Assembly: GCF_024637875.1 (NCBI RefSeq) | Contig: NZ_CP102451.1 | Span: 1,739,001-1,803,000 of the forward strand | Direction of reading: 5' to 3' | DNA from: Vagococcus luciliae | GTDB taxonomy: Bacteria; Bacillota; Bacilli; Lactobacillales; Vagococcaceae | Length of the DNA stretch: 64,000 nucleotides | Shown: piece after piece, positions 12,226-64,000 of the stretch | How the letters are laid out: the number at the start of each line of letters is the position of its first letter | How positions within the stretch are numbered: position 1 is the stretch's first letter | Program-made: the position numbers and the translations under genes | Notes under the pieces: model-generated | What the model was told of the DNA's origin: nothing | What the model saw: only the letters and a program-made list of their open reading frames with translations | Database searches by the model: none

Positions 12226-13232
12226 GTCAATTAACAGTCGCTATTTTAGGCGCTACAGGTGAAGTTGGAAAAGAGATGTTAAATTCTTTATTAGAACGCA
12301 ACATCCCGATTAAAGAATTGAAATTATTTGCTTCTAAAAGAAGTGCTGGTCAAACCAAGATGTTTGGTGACAAGGAATTAGCCATTGAAACCCTTACAAC
12401 AGATTGTTTTGAAGGCATTGATGTGGTGCTATGTGCCTTAGATGATGACATTGCACGCATTTATTTACCAGAAGCTAAAAAACAAGGCTGTTTAATTATT
12501 GATAATTCAAGTATTTATCGACTAGATGAAAATGTCCCATTAGTTGTACCAGAAGTGAATCCTGATGATATTTTTAATCATCAAGGAATTATCGCCAACC
12601 CTAACTGTTCAACCATTATCGCACTTGTCGCGATTGCACAATTGCATAAAAAAGCAACCATCAACTCAATGATTGTCTCAACTTATCAAGCTGTGTCTGG
12701 TGCAGGTAAGCAAGGAATCGAAGAATTAGAAACTCAAGTAGCTGACTTAGCAGAGGGAAAAGACGTTACACCTCATGTTTTTCCTTACCAAATTGCCTAT
12801 AATGTGATTCCTCAAATTGGTGGTTTTAATGACGAAGGGCACTCAAGTGAAGAAATGAAATTACAAAATGAAGGACGTAAAATTTTGCATCATCCTGACC
12901 TTGATGTAACGTGTACCTGTGTTCGTGTGCCTGTTATTCGCTCTCACTCTGAAGCCATTACTCTCTTTTTAGATAAAGACTTATCTGTTGAAGAAGCACG
13001 ACAAATTGTGAGTGAAACAGACGGTGTTAAATTAGTCGATGATTTAGACAATCAAGGATACCCAATGCCGTTAGATACATCGAATCAAGATTTAGTCTAC
13101 GTTGGACGAATTCGTAAAAATAAAATAGGAAACCAATCTGTTTTAACATTATGGTGTTGTGGTGACCAAGTAAGAAAAGGAGCAGCAACCAATGCTGTTC
13201 AAATTTTAGAGTATTATATTAAAAATAAATAG
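12222..13232 (+). CDS. asd: Aspartate-semialdehyde dehydrogenase
   Basis: Converts beta-aspartyl phosphate to aspartate semialdehyde using NADPH; 336 residues. The GATGEVG nucleotide loop is at residues 10-16. The nucleophilic cysteine is C129 in NPNCST, and RVPVIRSHSEA carries the catalytic histidine. It overlaps aspartokinase by four bases and completes a three-gene operon from aspartate to homoserine. Because asd also feeds lysine and diaminopimelate synthesis, the operon serves cell-wall synthesis too. Confidence 0.96.
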   Translation: MSQLTVAILGATGEVGKEMLNSLLERNIPIKELKLFASKRSAGQTKMFGDKELAIETLTTDCFEGIDVVLCALDDDIARIYLPEAKKQGCLIIDNSSIYRLDENVPLVVPEVNPDDIFNHQGIIANPNCSTIIALVAIAQLHKKATINSMIVSTYQAVSGAGKQGIEELETQVADLAEGKDVTPHVFPYQIAYNVIPQIGGFNDEGHSSEEMKLQNEGRKILHHPDLDVTCTCVRVPVIRSHSEAITLFLDKDLSVEEARQIVSETDGVKLVDDLDNQGYPMPLDTSNQDLVYVGRIRKNKIGNQSVLTLWCCGDQVRKGAATNAVQILEYYIKNK

Positions 13233-13237
13233 CAAAA

Positions 13238-13271
13238 AAGCTTAGAAACCAATCAGTTGATTTCTAAGCTT
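13238..13271. terminator. Bidirectional Rho-independent terminator
   Basis: A perfect 11-bp stem (13238-13248 with 13261-13271) with A/T runs on each side separates the convergent asd and alaS genes. Confidence 0.88.
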
Positions 13272-13279
13272 TTTCTTTT

Positions 13280-15925
13280 TTATTTATGTTCACTTATCCA
13301 AGGTGCGACTGCATCAAGCGCTGATTGTAACCCTTCTGGATTTTTACCACCAGCTTGAGCCATGTCAGGGCGACCACCACCGCCACCACCAACAAGTGGC
13401 GCGATTGCTTTGATTAAATCACCTGATTTCAATCCTTGCTCATTCATCTCTTTTGTCATACTTACCAGTAAGTTAACTTTCTCACCTTGAACTAACCCTA
13501 AAACTAAAATATCAGATAGTGATTTTTGTTTCCATTGGTCAGCTAATTGACGTAATTGATTCATGTCTTTAACCGCTACTTTAGATGCAATATAAGTCAC
13601 GCCATCCACTTCTTTGATGTCTTTAAACACATCTTCTGCTTCAGCGTTAGCTAATTTTGCACTTAATTGTTCTACTTCTTTTTGTGCTTGTTTTAATTGT
13701 TCTTGTAATTGTTCCACACGTTGAACAGTATCTTTTAGTTGAGGTGCTTTAACAAATTTAGATACTTGACGGAGTAATCCTTCTTCTTCTCTAAAGGCCT
13801 CATACGCTTCTTTACTTGTCACAGCTTCGATACGTCGAACACCTGCTCCAATTCCTGATTCAGAAACAATTTTGAAAACCCCAATATCAGAAGTGTTGCT
13901 TACATGTACCCCACCACATAATTCAATAGAGTAACCATCAACATTTACCACACGAACATTTTTACCATATTTTTCACCAAACAGTGCCATTGCACCCATT
14001 TCTTTTGCTGAATCAATGTCTGTTTCAACTGTGACAACTGGTAAGTGAGCCCAAATTTTTTCATTTACGATTTCTTCCATTTGTTTTAACTCTTCAGGTG
14101 TCACTTGTTCAAAATGAGTAAAGTCAAAACGTAAATAACCTGGTGCTACAAGTGACCCTGCTTGATTAGCATGCTCTCCTAATACATCTTTTAACGCACG
14201 ATGTAATAAGTGAGTGGCTGTATGATTTTTTGTGATGCGTTGACGTAACTCTTTATCAATGACTAATTGATAAAGAGCATCTGTTTTTAATTCACCAAAC
14301 ACTTCTACTTGGTGTAGTGATTGACCATTTGGTGCTTTTTTAACGTTCACCACATTGGCAACTAAATCACCTGATGCATTGTAAATTGAACCCTTATCAG
14401 CCACTTGCCCACCCATTTCTGCATAGAAAGGTGTTTGACCAAAAATTAATTGTGCATTGCCTTTAGTTGTCGCATCTTTAATTTCATCATCTTGAATAAT
14501 TACCATTAATTTAGCATCTACAGTGTCTTCTGTGTATCCCACAAATTCACTAACGACTTTGATGTCAGTTAATAGAGAAGATTGAACAGACATTGACTCT
14601 TCTTTCGAACGAGCTGCACGAGCACGATCTCTTTGAGCCGTCATTTCTATTTCAAAACCTTCGTGATCCACACTTAACCCTTCATCTTGAGCCATCTCTT
14701 CGGTCAACTCAACGGGGAATCCATACGTATCATATAATTTAAAGATATCTTTACCAGATAAGACTGTTTGGTTAGATGCTTTCAGATCTTTAATTAACTC
14801 ACTAATAATTGATAGACCATCATTAATTGTCTCGTGGAATCTTTCTTCCTCAGTTTTAATCACTTTTTGGATAAAGTCTTGTTTTTCAACAATTTCTGGG
14901 TAATAGCTCTCCATAATTTGTCCAACGACAGGCACTAAATCCACTAAGAAGGCTTTATCAATTCCTAATTTTTTACCATGCATCACCGCACGACGAATTA
15001 AACGACGTAACACATAGCCACGCCCTTCATTTGATGGCAAAGCCCCATCGCCAATTGCAAATGATACCGCACGAATATGGTCAGCAATGACTTTGAAAGA
15101 CGTATCTGTTGCACTATCTTTACCATATTCTTTGCCATCAGACATTTTTTGAGTTGCTTCAATGATTGGAATAAATAAATCTGTTTCAAAGTTTGTTTTA
15201 GCATCTTGGAAAATAGATACCATACGTTCTAATCCCATACCCGTATCAATGTTTTTATGTGGCAATGGTAAATACTCATTGTTTTCAGTATGATTAAATT
15301 CTGAGAATACTAAGTTCCAAATTTCTAAATAGCGTTCATTTTCGCCACCTGGGTAATTTTCTGGGTCATCTTCTGCCACATCATTGTATTTTTGTCCTCT
15401 ATCAAAAAATATTTCAGAGTTTGGACCACATGGACCAGCTCCAATATCCCAGAAGTTTTCTTCTAATTTAACAATAGACTCTTTTGGTAAGCCAACTTCT
15501 TCATGCCAAATACGAAATGCTTCTTCATCATCAGGATGAACCGTCACATATAATTTATCTTTATCCAAACCAAACCATTTTTCACCTGTTAATAATTCCC
15601 AAGCCCAATGGATCGCTTCGTTTTTAAAGTAGTCTCCTACTGAGAAGTTTCCTAACATCTCAAACATCGTATGATGACGCGCTGTTTTCCCAACGTTTTC
15701 AATATCATTAGTACGAATACTTTTTTGAGCATTAGTAATTCTTGGATTTTCAGGTACAACAGACCCATCAAAATATTTTTTTAATGTCGCCACACCAGAG
15801 TTAATCCATAATAATGTTGGATCATCAATTGGGACAAGAGAGGCACTTGGTTCAATTTTATGCCCTTTTGTTTCAAAAAAATCTAAAAATAATTGTCTAA
15901 CCTGACTACTTGATAATTGTTTCAT
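13280..15925 (-). CDS. alaS: Alanyl-tRNA synthetase
   Basis: Class II synthetase charging tRNA-Ala; 881 residues, full length. The aminoacylation domain starts with the [13 protein letters not shown] region and contains the class [15 protein letters not shown] motif. The editing domain has HTATHLLH and the zinc-type CGGVH. The glycine-rich segment [15 protein letters not shown] is in the C-Ala domain. The start has AGGAGGAA seven bases upstream. Expression is under a T-box leader. Confidence 0.98.
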
Positions 15926-56664: not shown

Positions 56665-57020
56665 ATTAATTAGTCATCTAACTATTCTATTTCTTTCTTC
56701 AAATCATATAAAGTTTTTAACAAGTAACTATTACTTATTATAACAACAGTGCCAATTAGATAATGACTTTTTAACAAAGCCATCTACCCTAAAATCAAAA
56801 AAATTAGGCTTATAATCCACATAAAAATCATATATTTTTTAGTGTTATTTCAATCTCTTCTATGGTTATTCTAACATTCAACCTTACCTTATTGGGTAAA
56901 TTACATACCCATTTCAGTTTAACATACATTTTTCAAATAAATAATATTATCATTTTATAGATTTTAATATTATTTAAAAAACTTTAACAAACCAGATTCA
57001 CTCGATAAAATTAAGCATAA
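56665..57020. other. AT-rich intergenic stretch
   Basis: No convincing ORF, RNA gene or repeat seen. The sequence has many stops in all frames and looks like decayed DNA between the chromosomal flank and the integrated element. Confidence 0.5.
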
Positions 57021-57026
57021 AAAAAT

Positions 57027-57059
57027 AGCTAGAACCCTTACTACACAAGGTTTCTAGCT
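57027..57059 (-). terminator. Orphan terminator, probably of rpmG
   Basis: AGCTAGAACCC (57027-57037) pairs with GGTTTCTAGCT (57049-57059) with one mismatch and a T-rich tail on the minus strand. No intact leftward gene ends here, only the L33-like remnant at 57074. Confidence 0.85.
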
Positions 57060-57073
57060 TATCATTATTAAAA

Positions 57074-57094
57074 TTATTTTGTTTCACGGTGTCT
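57074..57094 (-). other. Candidate attachment site: 3' end of an L33 gene
   Basis: The minus strand reads CACCGTGAAACAAAATAA, encoding HRETK-stop, the C terminus of many ribosomal protein L33 (rpmG) genes, but the sequence upstream is not L33. Followed 15 bases later by a terminator with no other gene. The expected pattern when an element integrates at the 3' end of rpmG and duplicates the core. The intact gene should then lie beyond the right window edge. Confidence 0.6.
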
Positions 57095-57491: not shown

Positions 57492-58343
57492 TTATGCACC
57501 TGTTATGGCTAATTTACCTTTGACAATGGCTTTACTATTATTATCTGGAACATAAGTACCATATTTAATAATTGACTGCATAGCCACCCCGAAAAATTCT
57601 AAATTATCGGTTAAAGCTCGATACTCATTAAAGCCTGCGAATGCTTTACCAATCTTATCTGCCACAAAATACGCATTCTCTCCTTTAGTAAAACGTGCGT
57701 CGGGTACTTCATGAAGTAAGAACCCTTTAAAGCTGTATAAAGTGTTTTGGTCAACGTTCACAGATGAATTTTTTGACGTTGTAGCTAATTTGCTATCAAT
57801 CAAGAAGTTATAAATATCAGACGTCACATAAGCACGTTTGACATGTGTCGCAATCACTTCATTCTGTGTAAACTCTTTAGACGCTTGATTAAACATCTTA
57901 GTCACACCATCTTCAGTGAGTTCGCCTGTTAATGTCTTGCTTGCTTTTTGTGATAACTGTTTTCCGCATGATTCATCAATTAATCTGGCAATCGCTCCTG
58001 CTTGTTTCTCCATGCGTTCGGCAGTAATCTGATCTATATCATCATTAACCGTTGCTATATCAACACCCTCATTGATTGATTTGACCGCCTCATAGTCTAC
58101 CTCTACATCAGTAGAAATAATTTCTTTCATTGCTCCTAATCGTCCAGCAGTGATATCTTTGCCCTTATCATAATCATTCACTTCTACGTCAATATCTGAT
58201 ACTTTCACCGTAAAAGCCTTATCGCTATTTCTTACACCGTCTAGGACATCTAACTCCCCAAACGAGTTAATAAAATGTGACTGTGACTTAAATAAGACGG
58301 GTAACATTTCTTTAAATTGTTTTGTATAAATTTTAACTGTCAT
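57492..58343 (-). CDS. Phage major capsid protein
   Basis: A 283-residue protein matching the phage capsid family found in Gram-positive phages and satellites (probably HK97-fold). Features are the N-terminal YTKQFKEMLPVLFKSQSHF, the central acidic and helical segment, and the conserved C-terminal part ARFTKGENAYFVADKIGKAFAGFNEYR. It is preceded by its scaffold and ends the late gene cluster. GGAGGAA precedes the ATG. It has no attached protease and no decoration protein follows. Confidence 0.85.
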   Translation of the reverse strand: MTVKIYTKQFKEMLPVLFKSQSHFINSFGELDVLDGVRNSDKAFTVKVSDIDVEVNDYDKGKDITAGRLGAMKEIISTDVEVDYEAVKSINEGVDIATVNDDIDQITAERMEKQAGAIARLIDESCGKQLSQKASKTLTGELTEDGVTKMFNQASKEFTQNEVIATHVKRAYVTSDIYNFLIDSKLATTSKNSSVNVDQNTLYSFKGFLLHEVPDARFTKGENAYFVADKIGKAFAGFNEYRALTDNLEFFGVAMQSIIKYGTYVPDNNSKAIVKGKLAITGA

Positions 58344-58358
58344 ATATTCGTTCCTCCA

Positions 58359-58946
58359 TCATTTCAAACCGTTAATAATCTTTTTAAACGGGTCCACTCC
58401 CTCATTAGACTGGACTTTTTTCGGCGTAATGCCTGTATTTCGTTCGGTTGCCCAAACTCTTTTTTGTTCTTCTAATAAATTAATCAATGTTTCTACTTTT
58501 TTATAGGTCACTTTTTCGTCTGTATCAACTACCAGGGAAAGTTGATCACGATTCAGTGCCAACCCAGAATCTTTTAATACTTCATCCGCTTGCTGTGTCA
58601 CTTCACTTAACTTAATTTTTTGTCTCAATGCTTCAATTTCTTTATCACGTTTTGTGAGTTCATCATCTTCGGATAGTTGAGGAGAATTCAATTTTGACTG
58701 GTTTTCCAGTTCTTCAATGCGTTTCAACGCTTCATCAAGTTGCTCTTTCGCTTCACGTTTTGCACCTTGTTCTTTGCCTAATCGTTTTTGAAGCTTTTGA
58801 ACAATTTCATCTGCTCGATTAGGTTGTTCTTGTGTCGTACCCTCTGCAGTTGATACGTCACTTACTTCTGTTACATCTTCAACTTCTTCGGCAAAGTGTT
58901 GTAAATTCATCACAATAGAATTATTTTTCACGGAATTATTTTTCAT
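58359..58946 (-). CDS. Phage scaffolding protein
   Basis: A 195-residue acidic, highly helical protein of the DUF4355 capsid-assembly type. MNLQHFAEE near the start is characteristic of Gram-positive phage scaffolds. The middle (about 45-115) is coiled coil, and the C-terminal DPFKKIINGLK is a basic capsid-binding tail. It lies immediately upstream of the capsid gene, 15 bases apart. Confidence 0.85.
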   Translation of the reverse strand: MKNNSVKNNSIVMNLQHFAEEVEDVTEVSDVSTAEGTTQEQPNRADEIVQKLQKRLGKEQGAKREAKEQLDEALKRIEELENQSKLNSPQLSEDDELTKRDKEIEALRQKIKLSEVTQQADEVLKDSGLALNRDQLSLVVDTDEKVTYKKVETLINLLEEQKRVWATERNTGITPKKVQSNEGVDPFKKIINGLK

Positions 58947-59040: not shown

Positions 59041-59421
59041 CTAATCTGTATCAACGCCTACCGCTCTTTCAATCGCTTCTATACGTTCTTGCATATCATC
59101 CATCTCAATGGAACGAAAGGCGACATCTAAAATCGTTTTTGCCGACTGTACTCGTGCGCTAGATGTGGAGTTCTCTTTATCGTGCATAACGTCCTCTAAT
59201 ACCTTTACTGCGTCATTTGATACACGTTGTAAACGGCTTGTCACTTGTCGCATAGTTTCTTGTCTAATCGCTCGATATTCCTTTAAAAATATTTCGTCTT
59301 TTAAATACTTAAAACCAGTATTTTTATTAATTCCAGCGACTTCACACGCTTTTTCAACCGTATCTGTTTCAAGCAATGCTCTTAAAAACTTCTCTTGTCG
59401 TTGATTTAATATGTCTGCCAT
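59041..59421 (-). CDS. Terminase small subunit-like protein (TerS)
   Basis: A 126-residue protein with an N-terminal helix-turn-helix (LNQRQEKFLRALLETDTVEKACEVAGINKNTGFKYLKD, about 4-42), a central helical region and a C-terminal coiled coil (DDMQERIEAIERAV). This is the usual layout of small terminase subunits, which recognise pac or cos. The ATG at 59421 follows GGGGGTG. No large terminase gene is found here, so it would have to work with a helper phage TerL. Confidence 0.8.
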   Translation of the reverse strand: MADILNQRQEKFLRALLETDTVEKACEVAGINKNTGFKYLKDEIFLKEYRAIRQETMRQVTSRLQRVSNDAVKVLEDVMHDKENSTSSARVQSAKTILDVAFRSIEMDDMQERIEAIERAVGVDTD

Positions 59422-59471: not shown

Positions 59472-59672
59472 CTAATCAACAGTAGGTACATCATCAATAA
59501 AAACCACTTTATAATTGTTTTTCTCAATGTGTTGATCTAATTCTTTTTTAGTCCAATTGTTTTCGCCATATGTCCTATCTTCATTCAAATCAATAAATAA
59601 AAGAGGAGTACCTTGTTTATCATGTATTATTTTTTCTAAAGTTTTTAATCGTTGGCTTAATTGATAGTTCAT
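59472..59672 (-). CDS. Small element protein, paralogue 2
   Basis: 66 residues beginning MNYQLSQRLKTLEKI, a short coiled-coil helix, then a mixed alpha/beta part. It shares start and layout with the next gene upstream (59693-59890), so the two are tandem paralogues. The ATG at 59672 follows AAAGGTG. No function known; position just before terS suggests a role in packaging or capsid redirection, which is inference. Confidence 0.7.
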   Translation of the reverse strand: MNYQLSQRLKTLEKIIHDKQGTPLLFIDLNEDRTYGENNWTKKELDQHIEKNNYKVVFIDDVPTVD

Positions 59673-59692
59673 CGGCTTCACCTTTCTTCATA

Positions 59693-59890
59693 TCACCCAA
59701 TAGATACATTGACTTGTGTCGGGTTAAAATTAGGCTGTTCCGCTCTAAACTGTTCAATACTCATTTTATTGCCATTAGCGACTGCGTAAGACTTATCATC
59801 ACCTAAAATGACATAGGTCACTTCTTTAACATCGCTCACGCCTAATTTCTTTTCTAATAGGCTTAATCGTTTATCTAATTGATAGTTCAT
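59693..59890 (-). CDS. Small element protein, paralogue 1
   Basis: 65 residues beginning MNYQLDKRLSLLEKKLG, then a beta-alpha part with DDKSYAVANGNKMSIEQF. It resembles paralogue 2 in its N-terminal helix and in the acidic-Tyr-Asn centre. The ATG at 59890 has GAGGTGA upstream; the Met at 59923 lies in the preceding hairpin. First gene after the leader promoter of the terS-scaffold-capsid unit. Confidence 0.7.
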   Translation of the reverse strand: MNYQLDKRLSLLEKKLGVSDVKEVTYVILGDDKSYAVANGNKMSIEQFRAEQPNFNPTQVNVSIG

Positions 59891-59915
59891 TGAGTTCACC
59901 TCTTTAAAATAAAAA

Positions 59916-59958
59916 GAGGACAAATCAACAATTCAAAAAGAATCATCAATTTGCCCTC
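59916..59958 (-). terminator. Hairpin with U tail in leader of the terS unit
   Basis: GAGGGCAAAT pairs with ATTTGTCCTC (59949-59958 with 59916-59925, one G.U) and is followed by TTTTTATTTT on the minus strand. It lies after the promoter at 60000 and before the first gene, so it could end the tape measure transcript or act as an attenuator. Confidence 0.75.
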
Positions 59959-59994
59959 ACGTTTTCGTGTCAGACTTGATATATTTATATGCTT

Positions 59995-60000
59995 ATTATA
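59995..60000 (-). promoter_or_regulatory. Extended -10 promoter of the paralogue-terS-scaffold-capsid unit
   Basis: TGGTATAAT on the minus strand is a perfect -10 with the extended TG. There is no good -35. An inverted repeat AAGTAT-TGAAAAC-ATACTT lies about 30 bases upstream (about 60017-60036) and may be an operator. Confidence 0.6.
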
Positions 60001-60047
60001 CCACAAATATAGCGTTTTAAGTATGTTTTCAATACTTTTTCTACTCT

Positions 60048-62369
60048 TTATGTTTGTAGGTTTAAATCTGTTTCGGCTTGCATAACTGCCCCGATGTCTT
60101 CAACAAACGCACTAAATACACGGCCGCCCATGCTTAACTTAATTTCAGCCGGTTGAGCGTTATTTTTCAATGTCAATTCATTGTTAGAAGATAAGTTCAT
60201 ATCATTCATTGAATTAATTTTCTTATCTAAGTCACTAAAATTTGCACCAATTTCAAAATCTTGGCTAAATGCAGTGTTTGCGAAATACTTCGTCATATCA
60301 CCGATGTTATCTTGAACTTTTCCGAATCCTGTATTTAAACCAGCATTTAAACCGTCCATGATGGCTTTACCATTATCGATTAATAACTTGCGGTCGTATT
60401 GAATTGGCCCTTTATGTTCACGAATCCAATCAGCAATACCACCAACAAATTTTTTACCTGCTTCCCAAGTCTGTTTAAGCCCATCGATAAAGCTATCAAT
60501 AACTGCTTTACCTGCTGCAAATAAATCAACATCGCCGATTGCTTTAATAGCATTTTTTATGTTATTAAAGATATCTTTCGTCCACTGTAAACCTTTATTC
60601 CATGCGTTTTTAAGACCATTTACTGCTTTATCAGCTAAATCAGATACAGTGTTTTTTATGTTATTCCACACATCACTAGCTAACTCTTTAATGTAATTCC
60701 ATACATTAGAAATAATTTCTTTTTGCCATTCGAACGAGAATTTAACATATTCTACAATTGCTTTAACAAGCCCTGTAACGATGTCTTTAATACCGTTCCA
60801 AATATCACTAGCACCTTGTTTAATGCTATTCCAAATCATTTTTAAGTCGCTGCCTAAATTAGTAAAATCACCAGTAATTAAATCAATGGCAATTAAAACT
60901 GGACCCATGATAACCGCTTTAATCAGTTCCCACGCACCGCTTGCAAGAGATTTAATACCGTCCCAAACTTGCGCTAAAGAACTAGATAAGCCGTTCCATA
61001 AATTCATAAATATTTCTATGAACGGATTTAAAATCCCCATAATAACTGTTGTAACTGAATCCCAAACTTCACTAGCTTTCTCCACAACGCCATTCCAAAG
61101 ATTACTTAACGTTTCTTTCATCTTGTCCCAAACATTAACAATTACATCTACTGCGACAGATATAGTGCTTTTTATACTTTCCCATACTTTTTGAGCGATT
61201 TTTTGGATTGTTTCCCAATTTTTATAAAGCAATACACCAGCAACTACTACTGCTCCTATAGCTAAACCAATTAGTCCAATAGGGCTTGTTAATAATGAAA
61301 AAACTGTTGTTAATCCACTTATCGCTGATTTGAAGTTATTTATGATTGAAATAGTTTTGTTAATAGCATTCATTGCTAAAAACGAACTAACTAAACCTGC
61401 AATAATTGGCATGAGCCAATTTGCGTTATCGCCAACAAATTTAAACATATTACCTACTAACTGTATTATTGGAGGAATATATGTCGATATTCTTTTTAAT
61501 ACATTTTCAAACGTTGCTCCAAATTGAGAAATGATATTTCCTATACTTTTGAAGTCTGTATTTTTTAATCCTTCGTTAATATTTGTTATCATGTCAGCTA
61601 CACCACGAACAACAGCGGTTTTAGCGTTCGCTATACCAGTTTTAATACCTGATGTTGAGTCACCAGCAATCTGTTCTAACGATTTAAGACCTCCGCCACC
61701 ATTTTTGTTCAAATCAATTAAAGCATCTTGAAATTCAGAAACTGAAATCTTTCCACTTGATAAGCCTTCTTTTAATTCGCCTGTTGTAACTCCCATTTGT
61801 TTAGCTAAAGTATTTAACGCAGGGCCTAAACCACTATTAATCATTGAATTCCATGTTTGAGCATCAACTTTCCCATTCGAAAATGACTGCGATAATTGCA
61901 TAACTGCATTATCAACCATTGTAGCGCTACCGCCAAAACCAAGGATTCCGTTGTTTAAAGCTGAAAATATCTCTTCTGATTTACTCAAATCGTTTGTTGA
62001 TGATGCTATTAATTGAACACCTTTAATAGCGGAATCTAATGGTGTTGGCAATCCATCTATACTTGCTTTTAACGCATCCATAGTGTTAGATGTTTCTTTA
62101 GCACTAAAACCCATGTTTTCAAATACCCTTTGAGAGTTATTCAGAGTATCTACGCGATCTATCGCACTACCCAATGAACTAGTAACCATATTTACTGCTC
62201 CGTCAACTAACTTGAATACACCGACACCTTTCATAATATCGCCAATTGATACACTCGCTTTTTTAGAGTTATCGTCCAGTCCACCAAGAGAATTATTAGC
62301 GTCTTTCATTGCTTTGGTAAAACCTTTATCCGTTGCGGATAGTATGGCTTCTACCGTATATGACTCCAT
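60048..62369 (-). CDS. Phage tail tape measure protein
   Basis: A 773-residue protein. The N-terminal part (about 1-270) matches the tape-measure N-terminal domain (AMKDANNSLGGL, VDTLNNSQRVFENMGFS, QLSQSFSNGKVDAQTWNSMI). Two hydrophobic membrane-type segments follow at about 320-390. A long helical part with Trp at roughly regular spacing (VWDKM, LWNGV, VWDSV, LWNGL) covers 390-640. The C terminus is WIREHKGP-like. By the usual scale of about 0.15 nm per residue this would set a tail near 115 nm. The ATG at 62369 has GGAG seven bases upstream. It is isolated from other tail genes and bounded by hairpins. Confidence 0.9.
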   Translation of the reverse strand: MESYTVEAILSATDKGFTKAMKDANNSLGGLDDNSKKASVSIGDIMKGVGVFKLVDGAVNMVTSSLGSAIDRVDTLNNSQRVFENMGFSAKETSNTMDALKASIDGLPTPLDSAIKGVQLIASSTNDLSKSEEIFSALNNGILGFGGSATMVDNAVMQLSQSFSNGKVDAQTWNSMINSGLGPALNTLAKQMGVTTGELKEGLSSGKISVSEFQDALIDLNKNGGGGLKSLEQIAGDSTSGIKTGIANAKTAVVRGVADMITNINEGLKNTDFKSIGNIISQFGATFENVLKRISTYIPPIIQLVGNMFKFVGDNANWLMPIIAGLVSSFLAMNAINKTISIINNFKSAISGLTTVFSLLTSPIGLIGLAIGAVVVAGVLLYKNWETIQKIAQKVWESIKSTISVAVDVIVNVWDKMKETLSNLWNGVVEKASEVWDSVTTVIMGILNPFIEIFMNLWNGLSSSLAQVWDGIKSLASGAWELIKAVIMGPVLIAIDLITGDFTNLGSDLKMIWNSIKQGASDIWNGIKDIVTGLVKAIVEYVKFSFEWQKEIISNVWNYIKELASDVWNNIKNTVSDLADKAVNGLKNAWNKGLQWTKDIFNNIKNAIKAIGDVDLFAAGKAVIDSFIDGLKQTWEAGKKFVGGIADWIREHKGPIQYDRKLLIDNGKAIMDGLNAGLNTGFGKVQDNIGDMTKYFANTAFSQDFEIGANFSDLDKKINSMNDMNLSSNNELTLKNNAQPAEIKLSMGGRVFSAFVEDIGAVMQAETDLNLQT

Positions 62370-62408: not shown

Positions 62409-62446
62409 GAGAGCAATACCAATCAATTAAGATTGATACTGCTCTC
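62409..62446 (-). terminator. Terminator upstream of the tape measure gene
   Basis: A 16-base stem (62409-62424 with 62431-62446, one or two wobble positions) followed by TTTTTATTTTC on the minus strand. It ends the transcript of the small upstream genes 40 bases before the tape measure ATG. Confidence 0.82.
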
Positions 62447-62466
62447 AGATTTTTTCTGCCAAGCTA

Positions 62467-62601
62467 TTATGCTATTTCTAAAATTACAGTCAGTGTAAAT
62501 AATGCAATTGCTAACCAACTATAAACCTTTTCACCCTCTTTAGTGCTAAACGTTGCGAGATAAGCTATCATTGCCAGGACAAATAATATTGCCTTTATCA
62601 T
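62467..62601 (-). CDS. Small hydrophobic protein, 44 residues
   Basis: ATG at 62601 preceded by GGGGG at about nine bases; encodes MIKAILFVLAMIAYLATF, a short charged turn, then a second hydrophobic helix ending in EIA. Two membrane helices with a tight hairpin are holin-like, but no function is claimed. It overlaps the end of the upstream gene by 56 bases in another frame, so expression is less certain. Confidence 0.5.
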   Translation of the reverse strand: MIKAILFVLAMIAYLATFSTKEGEKVYSWLAIALFTLTVILEIA

Positions 62602-62893
62602 CAACTTGTACCCCCTCTATAATTATTTGACGATCAAAACGCTCTTTATAAATCAACGCTGCTAAACTCATATGATAAAAACTCAATTTTTCTTTTGTTC
62701 TAATCGTATCTTGTTCTAATTTTTTGACTTGTTGTTTTAAGTCTGTTTGAGGCATTTGATAATAGCCTTTAGTTAGTGCTTCCACTTGATTGCCAAACTC
62801 TCGTATCATTAATTCAATTGTTCCTGTAATGTCGTTACTTTTTCTTTTCTTTTTACCGACAACGTTGACACCTTTTTTCTTTTTCTTACTCAT
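62546..62893 (-). CDS. Uncharacterised element protein, 115 residues
   Basis: Starts with a strongly basic segment (MSKKKKKGVNVVGKKKRK) and continues as a helical domain with a long Gln/Lys-rich coiled coil at about 50-75. It may bind nucleic acid. I do not recognise it. It overlaps the upstream 50-residue gene by ATGA, showing coupled translation. Confidence 0.65.
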   Translation of the reverse strand: MSKKKKKGVNVVGKKKRKSNDITGTIELMIREFGNQVEALTKGYYQMPQTDLKQQVKKLEQDTIRTKEKLSFYHMSLAALIYKERFDRQIIIEGVQVDDKGNIICPGNDSLSRNV

Positions 62894-63042
62894 TTTTGAC
62901 TTCCTTTCGGCTTAATGTTTTCTAATCTCTTGACAAGGACCAATTCACCATTTTGAACTTTAAGAGATAACTCACAAAAATCATATACCTCAATCACTTG
63001 TTTTTGTCCTTTTGCATTTTCAAATGTTACTGTATTTTTCAT
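62890..63042 (-). CDS. Small element protein, 50 residues
   Basis: ATG at 63042 with AGGAG eight bases upstream encodes MKNTVTFENAKGQKQVIEVY and continues to a lysine-rich end. Beta-rich and soluble in character. The stop overlaps the next gene as ATGA. Too short for family assignment, but the ribosome site and coupling support it. Confidence 0.65.
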   Translation of the reverse strand: MKNTVTFENAKGQKQVIEVYDFCELSLKVQNGELVLVKRLENIKPKGSQK

Positions 63043-63065: not shown

Positions 63066-63665
63066 TTATAAATAATCTAACTCACTATCTACTGCTTCAC
63101 GTATAAAGCCATATCCCTCTAATCGCTCTACTCCTTTTTTTATGACCTCGTTCGTCATGTCAAACACTTGCTTATCGTCACACGCTACGCCATGCGTTAA
63201 TACAATATCGCTAACGGTGACATAATAATCTGAATAAGCAACTGCCTGTATATCAACAGACTTGATATATAGGAAATGGTTGATTTTTAAATAAATCTTT
63301 TCTTCACTTTTTATTATCAGCTTGCCGACTTCTAACATATGTTTTTCAAGTTCAAACTCTGCCATCTGCCGTTGTTTTCGATAATCAGATAATTCAAGAT
63401 TTAATTGATCTGCTCTCACTTGGTCATTAATTGGAATACGACTATTATATATTCCACGATTAGAATCATAACTACTGACATTCTCACTATCATAGTATTT
63501 TTCTTTCAGTATCTTCAATTCATCTTTTGATAACTTCGGTAAACTATTAAATAATAATTTACCCTGCTCAATTTCGTATGGGCGTAACTTATCCCGATTT
63601 TCTTCTAAACACCGCCAATGTCTCAAATAATACTGTACACGTATATCTCTGTAATCTCTGCCCAC
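63066..63665 (-). CDS. Uncharacterised element protein, 199 residues
   Basis: A soluble, charged, largely helical protein starting MGRDYRDIRVQYYLRHWRCLEENRDKL, followed by an LKILKEKYYDS segment. It loosely resembles small phage regulators that precede the terminase region (RinA/ArpU-like late activators), but I cannot confirm a DNA-binding motif. Located upstream of the late genes, so an activator role is possible. Confidence in the gene is good, in the role low. Confidence 0.65.
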   Translation of the reverse strand: MGRDYRDIRVQYYLRHWRCLEENRDKLRPYEIEQGKLLFNSLPKLSKDELKILKEKYYDSENVSSYDSNRGIYNSRIPINDQVRADQLNLELSDYRKQRQMAEFELEKHMLEVGKLIIKSEEKIYLKINHFLYIKSVDIQAVAYSDYYVTVSDIVLTHGVACDDKQVFDMTNEVIKKGVERLEGYGFIREAVDSELDYL

Positions 63666-63676
63666 TTTATACCCCC

Positions 63677-64000
63677 CTATATCGCAAATAGTTCGCTTAA
63701 AGTATCTAAGTTATCATCAAAGTCTTGCGTCAATTCCACTTGTGGTAATTTATCGGGTATCTCTATCCCTGCACGTAAACAAATCGCTCGTTCAATCTCG
63801 TCTATTTCATCCGTCAACTCATACTCTAGTTGTGGACTTAGTTCTACTGGCTTATTCTCAATAAACCTTTGATACAAGCTCTTATAATCTTCCTGGGATA
63901 AGTTGTTTAAGTATTGGATAAAATACCTCTGCCGTATCTCGTAACGCTTAATGCGTTCATCAATCAACTCTAACGCCTTGATGTGTTCTAAGACTTCTTT
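63677..64000 (-). CDS. Uncharacterised element protein, 5' end beyond window
   Basis: The frame is open to base 64000. A TTG at 63967 could be an internal start, but the upstream codons (KEVLEHIKALEL) look coding. The visible 107 residues are acidic and helical. The segment LNNLSQEDYKSLYQRF and a Glu/Asp-rich C-terminal end stand out. No family recognised. It ends 11 bases before the next gene, so the two are one transcript. Confidence 0.65.
   Translation of the reverse strand, partial: KEVLEHIKALELIDERIKRYEIRQRYFIQYLNNLSQEDYKSLYQRFIENKPVELSPQLEYELTDEIDEIERAICLRAGIEIPDKLPQVELTQDFDDNLDTLSELFAI

Follow-up and report, generated by a model that had tools for sequence, protein, structure and literature searches.

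Satellites with their own tape measure protein

Satellites were long thought to take over whole helper tails, and work from 2026 on the PLEs of Vibrio cholerae changed this for one family. According to that work, published in March 2026, these satellites code for their own tape measure protein (TMP) (PMC12987554). The PLE TMP is present in the PLE virions, where it replaces that of ICP1, and its deletion cuts transduction by 96-99.9% (PMC12987554). So far, satellite particles with a helper tail on the satellite's own ruler have been demonstrated only in a cholera satellite. In the same paper, the legend of Extended Data Fig. 10 also names PLE-like elements and cf-PICIs for which tmp genes are predicted (PMC12987554). 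An earlier note on the Vagococcus locus described here stated that no system of this kind was known, which is out of date since the TMPs of the PLEs were shown.

We analyzed a window of 64,000 nucleotides from Vagococcus luciliae (contig 1, positions 1739001-1803000 of a 2.15-Mb genome in two contigs) and read a further 20 kb past its end. The window contains a TMP gene within a satellite element. The PLEs resemble this satellite in having their own TMP and in receiving the tube and other tail parts from the helper, as the Vagococcus satellite presumably does. They differ, according to PMC12987554, in that they also code for a tail assembly chaperone (TAC) and a baseplate hub (BhuB), depend on a contractile-tailed phage and have no capsid gene of their own, whereas the Vagococcus satellite has a long TMP of the non-contractile type, no chaperone that was found and its own capsid and scaffold genes; the two were compared by description only. 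The cf-PICIs listed with a tmp gene in PMC12987554 are, like the Vagococcus element, chromosomal satellites with a predicted TMP. SaPIbov5 shares with the Vagococcus element a satellite homologue of a phage capsid protein, Ccm. The text on it that was considered mentions no TMP (PMC8569155), and the Vagococcus element adds a separate scaffold gene. EfCIV583 of Enterococcus faecalis (helper P1) is likewise a Gram-positive chromosomal island of similar size (12 kb) with an integrase and a replication gene, but it lacks a head/tail module and uses P1 structural proteins, and the tails of both particles measure ~165 nm (PMC3675006).

In the literature on TMPs in PICIs, covered mostly by titles and abstract openings and for a part of the journals, no case from a Gram-positive, non-capsid-forming PICI was found. 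While the satellite TMP itself is already known from PLEs, the mosaic TMP with kept ends and the recurrence of TMPs in ordinary Gram-positive satellites appear to be new. The locus in the window and four others suggest that tail tailoring also takes place in ordinary PICIs of Vagococcus, Enterococcus and relatives.

Organization of the satellite element

The element comprises 12,586 bp between perfect 97-bp direct repeats. The left attachment repeat is located at 56996..57092 of the window and its perfect copy at 1808582-1808678 of contig 1. Half of the element lies past the window end, where orf163 is followed by the helicase loader, the replisome organizer, small ORFs, the regulators, the repressor, the integrase and the right-hand repeat. 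In the order of the minus strand, two HTH proteins and small ORFs precede the replisome organizer (phrog_5968, 9e-46), the DnaC-like helicase loader (phrog_50, 1e-51), orf163 (63677..64000, running past the window end), orf199 (63066..63665) and orf50 (62890..63042), the last three of which are conserved in sister satellites. After orf50, the genes orf115, orf45, TMP, two small ORFs, terS, scaffold and capsid follow on the same strand. The repressor and the integrase have the opposite orientation to the rest of the element.

The PHROG comparison covered 21 predicted genes of the element, some of which lie past the window end, and nine of them were also compared with Pfam. Three features used to recognize PICIs were found: a tyrosine integrase (phrog_1, E=1.2e-73) together with flanking repeats, divergent regulators (HTH proteins on both strands) with a replication module, and an own terS without large terminase or portal. 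By its gene content, the element is a Gram-positive PICI-type satellite. A 99-aa HTH protein gave a weak match to a family labelled terminase small subunit (phrog_57, 2e-7), which is read as a shared HTH and not as a terS. In cf-PICIs the large terminase, portal and connector genes belong to the element. Among the 21 predicted genes none matched these, so that the Vagococcus element is not classified as a cf-PICI. The same comparison gave no PHROG match to a tail tube, chaperone or distal-tail gene, in agreement with the earlier note, which had seen none of these beside the TMP gene. It had also named two findings that would speak against a lone TMP, a full tail operon further to the right and a complete phage with this gene order; the former was not found among the genes of the element past the window, and the latter was not found either. 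The phage structural and packaging genes between the repeats are terS, scaffold, capsid and TMP only. A complete or defective prophage or a prophage remnant was rejected as the main reading in view of the 97-bp repeats and the lack of tail, portal and TerL genes.

The major capsid protein gene (57492..58343, minus strand) codes for 283 aa and matches phrog_840 (E=9.6e-93) and 135 phage records, the best with 47.7%. The scaffold gene (58359..58946, minus strand, 195 aa) matches phrog_2932 (E=3.8e-43) and PF14265 (E=6.6e-9). The terS gene is of the satellite type (59041..59421, minus strand, ATG at 59421) and weakly matches phrog_2538 (E=3.7e-6). Its protein matches 55 phage records at <=47% identity; all of the 30 matches listed carry the name of a Streptococcus satellite phage. 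On the minus strand between terS and the TMP gene, small ORF B (59472..59681, 69 aa) has a similar ORF before terS in the satellite loci L084 and L108, and small ORF A (59693..59893, 66 aa from its ATG) resembles ORF B at the DNA level. Both ORFs (59472-59893) have the same start, MNYQL..RL, and share 75% of 59 bases, which looks like a duplication.

The tape measure gene and its mosaic structure

The TMP gene (60048-62369, minus strand) of this PICI-type satellite is genuine and intact. It is an unbroken frame of 773 codons for a protein of 773 aa, with an AAAGGAG site before the ATG at 62369. The protein matches Pfam TMP_3 (E=1.2e-28, 100.6 bits, cut-off 41) and phrog_58, annotated as 'tail length tape measure protein' (E=2.5e-94), over residues 3-763 and hence most of its length. 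In the order of transcription it precedes terS, scaffold and the major head protein, so that the description as a lone TMP gene upstream of terS in a satellite was correct. No clear promoter could be shown for the gene. Directly before it lies a leader/terminator consisting of a 4-bp stem with an A-rich loop, a 16-pair hairpin and a T run (62409..62458, minus strand), preceded on the same strand by the predicted ORF orf45 (62467..62604) and by orf115 (62546..62893). In satellite L089, the ORF immediately preceding the TMP shows weak similarity to orf115 (22.9% over 61 aa, E=3e-6). As a tail chaperone orf115 was rejected, because Pfam and PHROG searches gave no profile support.

A match to the TMP was found in 4 of the 14 genomes of the genus, the best one outside the window (63% identity) on contig 2 of genome G011, which we read as a phage-plasmid from its gene content. 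Along the protein, identity to this phage copy is 82% in residues 1-50, 56% in residues 51-100, 42-22% in residues 101-400 and 78-100% in residues 401-773 (86.6% overall in this last part). The DNA of the two genes is alignable only at the two ends, with 80% and 83%. Residues 96-360 of the satellite TMP share 63% identity with Enterococcus phage VEsP-1. For residues 101-250, identity to Brochothrix phage NF5 is 62-68%, compared to 24-46% between the G011 copy and NF5. Since the ends match the Vagococcus phage-plasmid and residues 101-250 match Brochothrix and Enterococcus phages, the gene is, by these alignments, a mosaic. The ends are constrained, with dN 0.080, dS 0.97 and dN/dS 0.08 for residues 401-773 and dN 0.10 and dS 0.83 for residues 1-75; these low ratios were measured against the phage copy and may predate the uptake of the gene by the satellite, having arisen in phages.

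In phage 80alpha, the TMP binds the tail completion protein with its N-terminus, at the neck, and Tal with its C-terminus (PMC11661146). Helper parts would therefore bind at the conserved ends of the satellite TMP. The match at the C-terminal end covers half of the protein, which is more than a binding tail. By analogy with the PLEs, we consider it probable that the satellite TMP gives the satellite particles a chimeric tail, in which helper tail parts are assembled on the satellite's ruler. Use for the satellite's own particle, one of the options proposed in the earlier note, thus is the most likely role. During growth of a helper siphophage, the satellite would produce a TMP of its own in addition to its capsid, scaffold and small terminase. 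The tail parts of the helper (tube, chaperone, distal-tail, tip and neck proteins) would assemble around the satellite TMP instead of the helper TMP. The satellite TMP keeps the ends that would contact helper parts, the N-terminus at the neck and the C-terminus at the tip. With a different middle at almost equal length, the ruler would be distinct in identity. Expression, incorporation and benefit of the TMP, like the identity of the helper, are what we infer for this model; the gain could be a ruler which escapes defences, or the satellite's own block, that hit the helper TMP, or one which injects better. As the ends fit the phage-plasmid and the middle comes from elsewhere, it becomes testable which part serves assembly, length, the choice between satellite and helper, or DNA injection.

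The close match of both ends to a phage TMP, with a differing middle, would also suit an interference factor that binds chaperone, tip or neck proteins of the helper and jams its tail assembly without being built in. Tail assembly is a known target of satellite and prophage defences, as described for Tai (PMC11364771) and Rta (PMC12987554). However, jammed tail assembly would also hurt the satellite, which depends on a tail, unless it had another ruler. Moreover, known inhibitors are small, e.g., Rta with 80 aa, whereas the satellite TMP is of full length with constrained ends, and the PLE TMPs are incorporated (PMC12987554). We therefore regard interference as unlikely.

Another explanation, which we hold to be quite unlikely, is that the satellite TMP sets a different tail length for the satellite or helper particles. 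TMP length generally sets tail length; the TMP of PLE11 is 95 aa shorter than that of ICP1 and the tails are 10 nm shorter (PMC12987554). In phages whose scaffold, capsid, neck and tail genes are similar, the TMP measures 674 aa (NF5), 1132 aa or 1163 aa. The nearest TMP found, that of G011, has however 767 aa compared to 773 aa in the satellite. The TMPs of the satellites are between 582 and 1644 aa long; the longest, in L084, is close in length to that of its phage relative (1593 aa), and there is no common shortening. The suggestion of the earlier note that the gene changes tail length is not supported so far. Because the lengths barely differ, a chimeric tail with a swapped ruler identity appears more likely than one of altered length.

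Sister satellites and recurrence of tape measure genes

A terS search in 395 genomes of the order gave a match in 24, the window's own genome included. A scan with a terS alignment in a collection of 84,980 species gave 15 loci, 8 of which had already been found and 7 of which were new, resulting in 31 loci in total. The sister satellite L082 (genome G001) has the same gene order, is bounded by 54-bp repeats and has no TMP. Identities are 96% for the DnaC-like protein, 93% for orf163, 89% for orf199, 84% for orf50, 82% for the replisome organizer and 73% for terS. In L082, orf50 is followed immediately by the terS leader and terS, and nothing matches orf115, the TMP or the two small ORFs. The stretch orf115-orf45-TMP is thus extra compared to L082, inserted between orf50 and the terS leader. 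This agrees with the idea of an independent cassette in part, as of the two proposed flanking hairpins only that at 62409-62446 lies on the TMP side. The right repeat of L082 (13048-13101) adjoins a tmRNA gene (13128-13494), and integration at the tmRNA gene seems likely.

The absence of a TMP from this close sister would fit a functionless passenger or a remnant of recombination with a prophage. In addition, this TMP is known from one satellite, so that the constraint on it comes from phage comparison and not from within satellites. Nevertheless, we consider a passenger very unlikely, given the intact 773-codon frame, the repeats on both sides, the absence of other tail genes brought along and the TMPs in four further satellites.

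Surveying satellites for a TMP near terS, as had been proposed, gave a TMP in 5 of the 31 loci with this terS type, namely the window, L084, L088, L089 and L116. This is a lower bound, since detection relied on blastp to known TMPs and on PHROG comparison of selected large ORFs rather than of every ORF, and a 771-aa frame of L086 with masked bases was left out. The TMP was undetected in 26 of the 31 loci and is therefore optional. The TMP of L084 (Vagococcus sp. DIV0080) has 1644 aa (phrog_1535, 4e-230), that of L088 769 aa (phrog_58, 2e-97) and that of L089 (Enterococcus sulfureus) 962 aa (phrog_1686, 7e-118). The 582-aa protein of L116 (uncultured Erysipelotrichaceae) matches best the unnamed family phrog_17020 (5e-35) and next the TMP family phrog_991 (3e-31). 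The best PHROGs of the five are hence four different ones, phrog_58 being shared by the window and L088, and we infer that TMPs were taken up repeatedly from different phages. In three of the five loci (window, L088, L089) the TMP lies between repeats; L116 was outside the repeat search, and in L084 an attachment repeat was sought and not found. In two of the five, another gene of the tail or neck region adjoins the TMP. In L084 this is DUF6711, which directly follows the TMP and is 66% identical to the ORF in the corresponding position of phage PLgT-1; in L116 a tail-completion/Neck1 gene follows (phrog_5, E=6.7e-21). With a terS of only 38.5% identity and a serine recombinase as integrase, L116 is the weakest case.

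Several other large frames were rejected as TMPs. A 1236-aa ORF of L114 is a helicase, a 946-aa frame of L085 is by eye a host regulator, and ten further large ORFs had no TMP match. In the full gene tables of the Streptococcus satellites Javan740, 293 and 89, none of the three has a tape-measure annotation or a CDS above ~1.6 kb. Viral contigs scanned with TMP, capsid, terS and the terS alignment gave no relatives. In L088 (11118-12018), two consecutive proteins end in nearly one motif (DFAKSNRLIGGK and DFARSNRIVKD).

It is conceivable, though doubtful, that ordinary Gram-positive PICIs took TMPs repeatedly and independently from helper tails that are unrelated to one another, swapped the middle while retaining the ends that bind the helper, and so obtained a ruler of the same length that is immunologically different. 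This would allow assembly and injection where the helper TMP is blocked, by TMP-directed assembly inhibitors or by superinfection-exclusion lipoproteins of the Ltp type. Ltp of phage TP-J34 excludes superinfecting phages via their TMP, in P008 via a positively charged C-terminal region (PMC3952083). Since the TMPs of satellite and phage-plasmid have the C-terminus in common and diverge in the middle, an Ltp-type escape becomes less likely, provided that the C-terminal end is the target here too.

Phage-plasmid and candidate helper phages

Contig 2 of G011 (78,932 bp; L013, L120, L121, L014 and L122) reads as one 39.5-kb unit present twice, with broken frames in the second copy. The phage-plasmid, of about 39.5 kb, seems to have been assembled twice. 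PHROGs were found for TerL, portal, major head and major tail protein, two chaperones, TMP, Dit, a Tal-like protein and ParA. Its TMP gene is part of a full virion operon, with two tail chaperones on one side and Dit on the other, whereas the satellite TMP stands alone. Apart from TMP and scaffold, contig 2 gave no match to satellite proteins. As the capsids belong to different families, phrog_840 in the satellite and phrog_544 in the phage-plasmid, a single helper supplying both modules is hypothetical.

The capsid search matched 18 of the 395 genomes, the own one included; 17 loci were fetched and the gene maps of 6 viewed. L040, L041 and L042 were rejected as sister satellites since they carry TerL and portal and are phages. 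In the phages L042 and L043, capsid (~50%) and scaffold (~44%) resemble those of the satellite, while the neck, tube and chaperone genes resemble their counterparts in the phage-plasmid (23-51%); their TMPs are those of 1132 and 1163 aa given above. Because they join satellite-like capsid and scaffold genes with phage-plasmid-like tail genes, a helper of this kind is conceivable. With three markers (TMP_3, SPP1-type portal and phrog_2), no resident helper prophage was found in the genome: TMP_3 occurs only in the satellite, the SPP1-type portal is absent and phrog_2 has one weak match (E=3.2e-5, 73 profile positions). Contig 2 of the window's genome (L016; 11,099 bp) is plasmid-like, and its ParA-like protein is 51% identical to that of the G011 phage-plasmid. 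By eye, it also carries a putative amidase gene and a putative recombinase gene.

Hairpins and leaders

Two hairpins on the minus strand flank the TMP gene, 62446-62409 (16 pairs) and 59958-59916 (19 pairs), each followed by TTTTTATTTT. The earlier note had described both with their same ending, and this part was confirmed. Terminator-like sites number 9 in the scan compared to 5.0 (sd 2.6) in shuffles, a count that alone is not striking; the two flanking hairpins have by far the longest stems, the other sites having 5-7 pairs. The hairpin at 59916-59958 is part of a unit before the terS operon (59911..60003, minus strand), composed of a promoter-like TGGTATAAT (59995-60003), a leader with a small stem and the terminator hairpin. 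This unit of promoter and hairpin is 90.5% identical over 116 nt to that before terS of L082. As L082 has no TMP, the hairpin belongs to the terS leader and, contrary to the suggestion in the earlier note, does not mark the edge of a TMP cassette.

Related leaders, with TCTGAC, a small stem with an A-rich loop and a terminator stem of other sequence, were found in L083, L084, L086, L087/L111, L089, L092, L101, L107 and L108, and some of them precede orf163 instead of terS. Rfam contained no family that matched these leaders at the gathering score, and a weak microRNA match (E=0.013, 23.6 bits vs 76) was taken as chance. A 20-base leader pattern gave no relatives among viral contigs. The TMP hairpin and the hairpin directly before the TMP of L088 have the same layout, a small stem and then a terminator, without the TCTGAC sequence. 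In a scan of 34 loci the layout was found at 13 places, 4 of these elsewhere, and at none in 33 mononucleotide-shuffled 20-kb strands, so that the copies at TMP genes are only suggestive. The layout shared by the satellites consists of a promoter-like TGGTATAATA, ~30 nt, TCTGAC, the small stem with A-rich loop and the terminator stem, which varies in sequence while its pairing is kept. It is located at 59911-60003 in the window, 6372-6485 in L082, 8117-8184 in L083, 10322-10386 in L084, 8582-8653 in L108 and in others. From this arrangement, the shared leader looks like an attenuator of the satellites' late genes.
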